A DNA stretch of 64,000 nt from Desulfovibrio sp. Fe33. GTDB taxonomy: Bacteria > Desulfobacterota > Desulfovibrionia > Desulfovibrionales > Desulfovibrionaceae. Below the pieces are notes generated by a model. That model was not told where the DNA came from and searched no databases. It was given only the letters and a program-made list of their open reading frames with translations. Location of the stretch: positions 62,001-126,000 of the forward strand of contig NZ_JAQKGU010000001.1 in NCBI RefSeq assembly GCF_028532725.1, in the 5' to 3' direction. Shown piece after piece: positions 49,452 to 52,133 of the stretch (the stretch's first letter is position 1; the number at the start of each line of letters is the position of its first letter). Made by a program: the position numbers and the translations under genes.

Positions 49452-49679
49452 TTATTCGGCAAGGACGGCGTAGAGGGCCGCCAGAAGCCACAAGAGTCCG
49501 CAGACGGCGGATGTTACAGGAATCATCCACCATTTGAGCTGGACCGGGCGACCGCGAAGCCGAAAGGATGCGCAGCAGCGAAACAGGGAGAGGACCATCT
49601 GGATGAGCAGGCCGGACGCGGCCAGTGCGGGCAGGGCAAGGACCCAGAAGAGGGGATCGGACATCCAGTCGGTGCGCAT
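49452..49679 (-). CDS. small two-helix membrane protein downstream of DAC-domain gene
   Basis: A 75-residue ORF with two hydrophobic segments (PLFWVLALPALAASGLLIQMV and IPVTSAVCGLLWLLAALYAVL, read in parts) joined by a basic loop (RCCASFRLRGRPVQLKWW). Its start at 49679 is 16 bases past the DAC-gene stop, in the same direction, so the two are probably co-transcribed. I recognise no family. A start at MSDP five codons in is also possible. Confidence 0.55.
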   Translation of the reverse strand: MRTDWMSDPLFWVLALPALAASGLLIQMVLSLFRCCASFRLRGRPVQLKWWMIPVTSAVCGLLWLLAALYAVLAE

Positions 49680-49695
49680 GATCCGAAAACAGGGG

Positions 49696-51120
49696 TCAGT
49701 TCATGACCCACTCGGCCAGAAGCGGGGGGCGCCGCAAGCCGCAGATGTGCTGGAAGTGGCACAGGGCGGTCAATTCCACCCCGTCCTTGATGATGGACAC
49801 GGGCCGGTCGGCGGACACGACCACGACCACGAGCTCCTCATGTTCGGCGGTAAAACGCAGGGCGGAGTTGAAGCGCGCGCCCCTGGCCCGGTTCTCGCCA
49901 GGCACGCTGCGGCCGTCCATGAGGCAGGCGAAGCCGTGCAGTTTGAGATCGCGGCCGATGTGCACGGCCCCGTCCAGCTTGGCCAGGGAGCAGGCCAGCT
50001 TGAGATGGCTGGTGCTGGTCAGGTCCAGCGGCTCCACCAAATGTTGCCCGGACATGTTCAGGGGGTTGCGGCCCATATCAACAACCAGGGTGCAGCCGTG
50101 CTTGCGATCGCGCACCCGGTTGACCATGGTGGTGACGATCTTGAACAGGGCGTTCTGCTTCCCCATGGTCATGTCCGTCTCCAGGAACTGTTCCTCCAGT
50201 TGGACCAGATTGGCCCGGAGGTTGGAAGAGCGGAACCGGCCGTCGCCGAAGCTGCACACCAACTGGTCGCGAATCCACAGGAACCCGTAGGAGCCGGAGA
50301 ATTGGGCCGCCAGGTAGGCGCCGGGCATGGGGCCGATGGCGATGCCGAGAACGGACGTCCCGTTCGAGACCAGCACTCTGCCCGAGTCCTCCACGGCCTG
50401 CAAAAGTTTGCGGACATGCTTGAAATTCGCGGTCTTGGGTTGCTCGTGTTCCGGAAAACGGCAGATGAAGCGGACCTTATCGAGCTGGGTGGGCTCCACC
50501 ACCACGATGCGCCCCCTGGGGGCCGCGCCTTCCTCCTTGGTGGCCGATACGCCGATGAGCGCGTCCAGGAAGGGATAGACCCTGATCTGGGTATCCAGCC
50601 ACCCCTGGCGGGAACGCTCGTCCACGATGTAGTCCCGAATGGCGTGAATGGCGCAGTGCTGGAGCATGAACCCGGCGGTGTCCAGCCCCAGAACGCTGCC
50701 TGTGGCGAAGTGCTGTGAAAACAGCTCGGCCGCGTATTCCAGCCAGCTCCGCGTGGGACCGAGGGAGCACATGTCCGGGTGCTCTTCGGTGAACCACATC
50801 TGGTAGCTCACGGAATTGGAGCGCGCCGCCAAATTGATGAGTCCGGCAAGGTCCAGCCCGACCTCGTCCTGGCTGAGGACGCGCAACCCCTCGATGCGCT
50901 CTTCCTTGCCGCGCCAGCGGTTCGAATACAGAAAATAATCCTGAAGTTTGGGCTCATGGCCTTCGAGCAGCCCCTGCGGGTCGCAGATGCGCGGCGGTTC
51001 GCCGCGTCCGACCGCATAGACCACGGCCACCCGGCTCGGAGGAGAGAAATGGGACAACCCGTCCCGCAGGCCGTCCAGAATGTGAAATATGCAGATGTTC
51101 TCGAACGATGCTTGTGACAT
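49696..51120 (-). CDS. protein with divergent diadenylate-cyclase (DisA_N) domain
   Basis: A 474-residue protein. The first 300 residues are an unfamiliar, soluble N-terminal region. The C-terminal part is a DAC/DisA_N domain: LDGAVHIGRDLKLHGFACLM (DGA at 383-385) and ARGARFNSALRFTAE, followed by VVVVSADRPVSIIKDG. The DGA motif is intact, but the usual RHR motif reads RFN (from residue 416), so diadenylate cyclase activity is uncertain. No DisA DNA-binding region or CdaA membrane helices are present. ATG 51120 has GGGAGC upstream. It may make or bind a cyclic dinucleotide. Confidence 0.75.
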   Translation of the reverse strand: MSQASFENICIFHILDGLRDGLSHFSPPSRVAVVYAVGRGEPPRICDPQGLLEGHEPKLQDYFLYSNRWRGKEERIEGLRVLSQDEVGLDLAGLINLAARSNSVSYQMWFTEEHPDMCSLGPTRSWLEYAAELFSQHFATGSVLGLDTAGFMLQHCAIHAIRDYIVDERSRQGWLDTQIRVYPFLDALIGVSATKEEGAAPRGRIVVVEPTQLDKVRFICRFPEHEQPKTANFKHVRKLLQAVEDSGRVLVSNGTSVLGIAIGPMPGAYLAAQFSGSYGFLWIRDQLVCSFGDGRFRSSNLRANLVQLEEQFLETDMTMGKQNALFKIVTTMVNRVRDRKHGCTLVVDMGRNPLNMSGQHLVEPLDLTSTSHLKLACSLAKLDGAVHIGRDLKLHGFACLMDGRSVPGENRARGARFNSALRFTAEHEELVVVVVSADRPVSIIKDGVELTALCHFQHICGLRRPPLLAEWVMN

Positions 51121-51341: not shown

Positions 51342-52133
51342 CTAGACCCGGGCGGCGACGAGAACGTCGGCCAGCTCGCGTATCACGCCGTAACCGCCCC
51401 TGGCCTCCGTGACCAGGTCGGCCATGGCGAGAATCGCGGGATGGGCGTCGGCGGGCGCGACCTTGAACCCGGCCAGCCCCATGGCGTCGGCGTCGTTGAC
51501 GTCGTTGCCGACGAAAAGCACTTCGCCCACGGAAACATGGTTCTTTTCGGCAAGATTTATCAGGGCGGCACCTTTGTCGCGGATGCCGTGGACAGCCTCC
51601 AAACCGATCTTGTCGGCCCTGGCCTTGACCACGGGATTAACCTCCGTGGAAAGGATGACCTGGGCGATGCCGAGGGCGCGGATGAGGTTGACGCCCATGC
51701 CGTCGCTGCGGTTGGCGAACACGGATTCGCGCCCCTCCTGATCGGTAAGCACACGGTTGTCGGTCATGACGCCGTCGAAATCGTAGACGATGAGGCCGAC
51801 CCGTTCCAGCCCGGGCAGTCCCCGGCCGGTGAGAGAGAGCATTTCGCCGTCCGGCCCGAGGTAGATGGGCTGATCCTTCATGAGCTTTTCGGCGCGGCCG
51901 CCGCCGTTGTCCAGAATGCCCGCCACGGCGAGGACAACGTCCGGCACCTCCAGAGTGACGATCACGCACCCCCCGGCGGTGGTGTCCCGTCCCTCGACAA
52001 GGCGCAACGACTGGCCGTAAGGCCCGACGAGCAGTCCGTCCCAGGCCAGGTCGAACCCCAGGGCGTTCTTGTAGAAGGCGGCGGACTTGGCGATATTTCG
52101 AACCAACAGGGTGACGGGGGGGAATGCGGCCAT
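51342..52133 (-). CDS. fusion of VOC (glyoxalase-like) and KdsC-type HAD phosphatase
   Basis: A 263-residue protein with two parts. Residues 1-105 look like a VOC/glyoxalase fold (VTLLVRNIAKSAAFYKNALGF; GPYGQSLRLVEGRD). Residues 110-260 form a KdsC/C0-type HAD phosphatase with DxD at 118-120 (VYDFDGVMTDNRV), STEVNPVVKARADKIG and the late FVGNDVNDADAMG. KdsC removes phosphate from KDO 8-phosphate in lipopolysaccharide synthesis, but single-domain KdsC is about 180 residues; the VOC addition is unusual. The substrate is open: KDO-8-P or a related sialic-type acid phosphate. No KDO or sialate genes are adjacent. The frame is continuous, so this is one polypeptide. Confidence 0.82.
   Translation of the reverse strand: MAAFPPVTLLVRNIAKSAAFYKNALGFDLAWDGLLVGPYGQSLRLVEGRDTTAGGCVIVTLEVPDVVLAVAGILDNGGGRAEKLMKDQPIYLGPDGEMLSLTGRGLPGLERVGLIVYDFDGVMTDNRVLTDQEGRESVFANRSDGMGVNLIRALGIAQVILSTEVNPVVKARADKIGLEAVHGIRDKGAALINLAEKNHVSVGEVLFVGNDVNDADAMGLAGFKVAPADAHPAILAMADLVTEARGGYGVIRELADVLVAARV

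Follow-up and report, generated by a model that had tools for sequence, protein, structure and literature searches.

Does a diadenylate cyclase (DAC) domain in which the RHR motif reads RFN still make a cyclic dinucleotide, or does it only bind one? This question is raised by a gene of the window, that is, the whole stretch of 64,000 nucleotides that was analysed. The initial annotation had described its product as a DAC-domain protein that keeps DGA and replaces RHR with RFN, followed 16 bases on by a two-helix membrane protein. Both descriptions were borne out: DGA lies at residues 383-385 and RFN within the segment RGARFNSALR at residues 413-422, while a 75-codon open reading frame at 49452-49679 on the minus strand contains two hydrophobic stretches. 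The features of the locus are:

49696..51120, minus strand: variant DAC protein of 474 amino acids with the domain order DACND-DACNH-DAC (open reading frame, Pfam, predicted model)
50608..51108, minus strand: DACND domain, residues 5-171, presumed sensor (Pfam PF21749, 224.5 bits)
50254..50577, minus strand: DACNH domain, residues 182-289 (Pfam PF21750, 101 bits)
49780..50124, minus strand: DAC domain, residues 333-447 (Pfam PF02457, 48.7 bits; CdaA structures, Z 15.6)
49966..49974, minus strand: DGA motif, residues 383-385 (D383 and G384 in 153/153 aligned class members)
49855..49884, minus strand: RGARFNSALR, residues 413-422, at the position of the canonical G-T-R-H-R segment (R413, R416, N418 and R422 in 153/153)
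49452..49679, minus strand: two-helix membrane protein of 75 amino acids with conserved CC..F...G....L.WW.IP, 16 nt past the DAC gene

The assignment to the DAC proteins is not a matter of chance, given the PF02457 score (48.7 bits against a cut-off of 27, E 6.6e-13) and the similarity of the predicted model to CdaA structures. The full-length model (mean pLDDT 88.4) matched 8c4n_B with a Z of 15.6 and an rmsd of 2.4 over 128 aligned residues, the best non-DAC row reaching 7.1, and its residues 316-452 superpose with Z 15-16 on structures of CdaA, among them its complex with ATP, 8c4o. A sequence search with the single protein against solved structures gave no match at E <= 1, and phage records contained no relative at E <= 0.01. 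DACND, DACNH and DAC all exceeded their Pfam cut-offs, in that order, so that the roughly 300 N-terminal residues initially listed as unknown do have Pfam models, DACND (5-171) and DACNH (182-289), which are labelled 'probable sensor domain'. The PF21749-PF21750-PF02457 architecture is identical to that of the Pfam family to which the protein itself belongs, and both N-terminal domains were reportedly defined by Galperin in a 2023 survey of DAC architectures. What is added here is the RFN class signature, a possibly DAC-like DACNH and a genus-specific membrane partner. Literature searches with the domain names, and for Desulfovibrio together with c-di-AMP and diadenylate cyclase, found nothing that was relevant by title, most subscription papers lying outside the scope of both searches. 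CdaA_N (PF19293) was absent in the Pfam scan and the maximum 19-residue hydropathy was 1.32; the protein is predicted to be soluble, with two N-terminal domains unlike those of CdaA. Both genes are under purifying selection: in comparison with seven chosen relatives, the DAC gene had a dN/dS of 0.03-0.17 and its small neighbour one of 0.11-0.18. Promoter and terminator scans at the locus yielded nothing usable. The upstream gene (51342-52133, minus strand) matches a glyoxalase-like model N-terminally and a HAD hydrolase model C-terminally and hence seems to be a fusion.

At the site where canonical DACs read G-T-R-H-R, the window protein reads G-A-R-F-N. Decay of one copy can be ruled out as the origin of this change, since R-[F/Y/L]-N was found in 74 of 74 proteins (73 of them distinct) that had been collected without use of the motif. 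These comprise 45 DACND proteins of the order found by DACND, the window protein included (38 RFN, 7 RYN), 22 additional phylum-wide proteins found by DACNH (16 RYN, 6 RFN) and seven distant relatives on plasmids that tblastn detected (4 RYN, 2 RFN, 1 RLN). According to the taxonomy lines of the records and to Desulfo- titles, the motif class extends over Desulfobacterota, Bacillota, Planctomycetota, Pseudomonadota and Bacteroidota. A wider tally of 186 proteins gave R-x-N in 155, RHR in 30 and neither in one; it is not independent, because it includes loci fetched with the motif itself as well as overlapping records. Locus L138, a truncated frame, was excluded from the motif counts. One class member happens to read GTRHR in its DACNH region. 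Judged by these sequences, RFN is thus the signature of a whole class and no oddity of the window protein: the anomaly noted at the outset is real, but it is shared by a class in five phyla instead of being peculiar to this protein.

RHR is given as the rule for canonical diadenylate cyclases in a passage of PMC8573169, and it is on this source that the rule rests here, as the 44 canonical DACs compared were themselves picked by RHR. Long DACs of the phylum, hand-picked from the match list, carried RHR in 14 of 14 cases. For a phylogeny without the motif columns we used 84 DAC domains, namely all 44 RHR rows together with 40 R-x-N rows (8 chosen, 32 random, from a total of 155). A single branch divides R-x-N from RHR-type DACs (SH-aLRT 99.6) in this tree, which is based on a short alignment, leaves 39 of 80 inner branches unresolved and has an RHR side from Desulfobacterota only.

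An alignment of 153 class members, into which motif-fetched loci also entered, shows no variation at D383, G384, G403, R413, G414, R416, N418, R422, S436 or D438; D402 occurs in 151. In comparison with canonical DACs, the His and second Arg of RHR are replaced by F/Y/L and N, the canonical P-L by D-G, and the Gly six residues past the first Arg of RHR by the invariant R422. In a profile alignment S436 corresponds to the canonical Ser and D438 to the second Glu of S-E-E, a stretch that a column-wise MAFFT alignment displaces by one. The DAC domain is also the most conserved part of the chain: invariant positions in the 45 proteins of the order amount to 29% in DAC, 17% in DACNH and 16% in DACND. 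These alignments suggest that the pocket of the R-[F/Y/L]-N class is rebuilt instead of eroded. Our preferred explanation, which we hold with moderate confidence, is that the window protein is a cytosolic enzyme with a rewired pocket that synthesizes a cyclic dinucleotide under the control of a sensor and belongs to a separate class of DACs marked by R-[F/Y/L]-N. It is favoured by the invariance of the motif (74/74 in the motif-independent set; R416 and N418 in 153/153 with motif-fetched loci) and by the position of DAC as the most conserved domain. Furthermore, D383, R416 and S436 are kept, the counterparts of residues that contact ATP or metal in CdaA (Asp of DGA, Arg of RHR, and Ser); in CdaA of Leptospira, substitution of this Asp or Arg abolished activity (PMC12974146).

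The same pocket could also belong to an ordinary c-di-AMP synthase, in which RFN would be a neutral spelling and product and role would be those of CdaA. This reading overlaps with the preferred one and draws on the close similarity in fold to CdaA. Nevertheless we regard it as unlikely, as a supported branch (SH-aLRT 99.6) separates the class from RHR-type DACs even when the motif columns are taken out, and as many pocket residues differ, for example D-G in place of P-L, R422 in place of G and D438 in place of E.

A further alternative is a non-catalytic nucleotide receptor that would have lost cyclase activity together with RHR, would bind ATP or c-di-AMP and would pass the signal on by way of DACND or of the small membrane protein. 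While the window protein has the DGA typical of the canonical cyclases DisA, CdaA and CdaS, it lacks their RHR, two of the three residues being lost. In the DisA-type enzyme Rv3586, exchange of RHR for AAA abolished ATP binding and cyclase activity, as reported in part of PMC3328451; this speaks for a receptor and weakens the synthase reading. A conserved pocket, moreover, suits binding as much as catalysis. On the other hand, neither the Asp of DGA nor the first Arg varies within the class, and R413 and R422 could stand in for the lost positive charge. We consider a receptor possible but not probable.

The genomic company of the gene bears on both alternatives. The genome of the window also encodes a canonical CdaA (G000:C4), which scores 238 bits with TIGR00159; a YbbR/CdaR gene comes after it and a gene that we read as folP-like before it. 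With this canonical pair present, c-di-AMP synthesis is expected independently of the window protein. This CdaA has DGA and, as judged by CdaA structures, the DAC fold in common with the window protein, but differs from it by its N-terminal membrane domain, its GTRHR and the adjacent YbbR/CdaR gene. Within the genus, in or next to Pseudodesulfovibrio as judged by named relatives, the DAC gene was present in all 36 genomes, like a core gene. In 35 of them there were two DAC matches, the second being high-scoring; the remaining genome (81% complete) had the divergent DAC only. A second synthase is therefore not obviously needed, which again suits a receptor. However, three genomes from two genera have a class member without a detected CdaA or CdaR: two, with completeness of 94% and 85%, belong to another genus of the order, and the third is a single-contig genome from the phylum (completeness 99%). 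In each, the sole DAC match scores low, as the divergent class does, the class member reads RYN, and YbbR gave no match. Incompleteness could be the cause of the missing CdaA in the 94% and 85% complete genomes. The retention of a class member in these three genomes speaks, if mildly, against a protein that does no more than read the product of CdaA, and is in line with a synthase, ordinary or not.

Besides the class itself, we observed a different DAC arrangement. Three loci with long RHR-type DACs were scanned of 14 fetched (L221, 834-2258, minus strand; L224, 922-2334, minus strand; L230, 1370-2860, plus strand), and all three encode an RHR-type DAC and two YbbR (CdaR) repeats in one chain, i.e. 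a synthase joined to its usually separate regulator. They have a CdaA_N-like start, which is above the cut-off in L224 only.

Structure prediction of the N-terminal region had been proposed initially and gave a model (mean pLDDT 90.5 for the 300 residues modelled alone) in which DACND matched no one fold clearly and DACNH resembled DAC at Z below 8. For DACND, GAF, LuxR-type, longin-like and other rows tied in the VIA-align search at Z 6-8 (up to 7.8), below the trust level of the tool; as several folds tie, none is claimed. DACND has no class-invariant residue, and none is expected, because the seven distant members have DACNG (four) or no Pfam match (three) in its place. In DACNH, by contrast, E197, G203 and K238 are invariant across the class and R237 occurs in 151 of 153 members. 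This suggests that DACNH is part of the working core, whereas the first domain would be an exchangeable sensor.

Among the 50 matches listed for the N-terminal model, 18 cover residues ~160-299, and all 18 are DAC-domain proteins (CdaA, CdaS, CdaM/DacM, DisA), with Z 6.2-7.7 over 102-112 residues and rmsd 3.2-3.9; values of Z below 8 may, according to the tool, reflect a common arrangement. By our reading, the order of secondary-structure elements in the DACNH model agrees with that of DAC except for one helix, the one that bears RHR or RFN. This may indicate that DACNH is a degenerate DAC fold and the protein a two-DAC chain, a weak suggestion from the model that is partly contradicted by two other comparisons. 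Foldseek with the N-terminal model returned no solved DAC among the best 50 and no match at E <= 0.001, and a profile-profile comparison of DACNH with both DAC sets gave a probability of 0.2%; the latter is a weak test, since the comparison of the window class with canonical DACs, which served as its yardstick, itself reached only 52%.

In canonical DACs two DAC domains, contributed by separate chains, meet head to head. As DACNH behaves like core and the first domain like an exchangeable sensor, it may be speculated that the window protein is a single-chain tandem cyclase, although we consider this improbable. DACNH would then be no sensor but a degenerate DAC without the RHR helix, which pairs with the C-terminal DAC within the chain to form a composite site of E197, R237 and K238 with R413, N418 and R422. 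The product might be a dinucleotide other than c-di-AMP, and the role of swappable sensor would be limited to the domain at the far N-terminus (DACND, DACNG). If so, an asymmetric built-in dimer would serve both the core signalling of sulfate reducers and CBASS defence.

The small membrane protein was initially proposed as the output of a nucleotide-signal producer or sensor. Its hydrophobic stretches lie at about residues 8-33 and 50-74, with a basic loop between them that carries an invariant CC pair; WW-x-IP, of which both W, I and P are invariant, opens the second stretch. Membrane proteins follow the positive-inside rule, by which the basic loop would be cytoplasmic. In 36 of 36 genus genomes the small gene is the next one after the DAC gene and on the same strand, whereas no match was detected near the DAC in the nine genomes of the order that have DACND and belong to other genera; the pair is thus conserved in the genus. 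A profile built from 32 of the 36 genus sequences was run on 119 genomes of the family, 50 of which have DACND, and found the protein in the 7 that belong to the genus. Among 297 phylum genomes, with up to 19 candidates scored per genome, it was found in the window's own genome only, and neither set yielded a credible match in another genus. Two weak hits were taken as chance: a second own-genome match (G000:C9, E 4.6e-4), in a region with several overlapping long frames on the two strands, and a partial match with one internal stop in another genus (G542, E 1.1e-4). The membrane protein thus appears from these searches to be a genus-level add-on to a DAC of wider distribution. As a general output of the DAC it can be ruled out, given its restriction to the genus while DACND occurs in 50 of 119 family genomes and given that none was found elsewhere (with up to 19 candidates scored per phylum genome). 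A producer or sensor of a nucleotide signal stays the best frame, and the idea of a membrane output does not hold generally.

Class members also occur in phage defence. One from a Citrobacter plasmid, reading GSRYNSGVRY, scored 803.8 bits against the NCBIfam model DS2_3 (NF053872, equivalog cut-off 630), which places the anti-phage DAC of DS-2 in the R-[F/Y/L]-N class. The window protein and DS2_3 have in common the DACNH-DAC core, R-[F/Y/L]-N, and the invariant E197, R237, K238 and DAC pocket residues. The latter differs by having DACNG instead of DACND and by being ~100 residues longer, and in Citrobacter it adjoins a phospholipase (DS2_1) and a nucleotidyltransferase (DS2_2). A role of the window protein itself in phage defence, for which the common motif class and core would speak, seems very improbable. 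It reached 66.4 bits with NF053872, far from the cut-off, carries DACND and not DACNG, had no match in PADLOC and is present in all 36 genus genomes in the manner of a core gene. The five neighbours scanned in the window match HAD/glyoxalase, MCP, substrate-binding (just under the cut-off), GGDEF and MacB/FtsX models, and no CBASS phospholipase or CD-NTase gene is among them. The window protein is hence, by its sequence, no DS-2 component. According to a passage of the DefensePredictor paper (PMC13092281), DS-2 requires its DAC: defence against phage was eliminated when two residues predicted to be catalytic were mutated. Membership of this DAC in the class favours a synthase, but the passage reports loss of defence and not of enzyme activity, so that the mutants do not distinguish binding from catalysis and are compatible with a receptor as well.

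On Gluconobacter and Priestia plasmids (L185, 4064-7734; L187, 4115-7104), class DACs lie near, and divergent from, annotated nucleotidyltransferase genes; the Priestia nucleotidyltransferase matches SMODS, and the Gluconobacter DAC is above the DS2_3 cut-off. Outside the genus, no neighbour that names an effector was common to at least 5 of the 63 located loci (68 examined; L169, which shares a contig with L168, was omitted from this count), which weakens the synthase reading. Neighbourhoods within the genus were read roughly, as shadow ORFs disturb gene picking.

In a sensor-controlled synthase, our preferred explanation, DACND would sense an intracellular cue and switch the DACNH-DAC unit. 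This unit would bind two nucleotides, most likely ATP, in the rebuilt pocket, in which D383 and G384 are retained as in canonical DACs and R413, R422 and N418, invariant in the class, would make up for the loss of His and Arg from RHR. The acidic residue two past the conserved serine is Asp (D438) where canonical enzymes have Glu. The product would be a cyclic dinucleotide, either c-di-AMP or a variant of it. In Pseudodesulfovibrio the membrane hairpin, with its positive loop probably facing the cytoplasm, may tether the enzyme to the membrane or tune it there.

The window gene encodes a real and conserved variant of the DAC proteins, the anomaly of which is class-wide and linked to CBASS defence, while catalysis and product are predictions. 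Enzymes of cyclic dinucleotides are assigned by motif, and here a class from five phyla breaks the diadenylate cyclase motif and keeps a strict signature of its own. To this class belong both an anti-phage protein that has been validated and a gene that is core in a genus of sulfate reducers. At stake is whether a signal of another type comes from DAC proteins, and whether DACNH, the supposed 'sensor', is in truth half of the enzyme.
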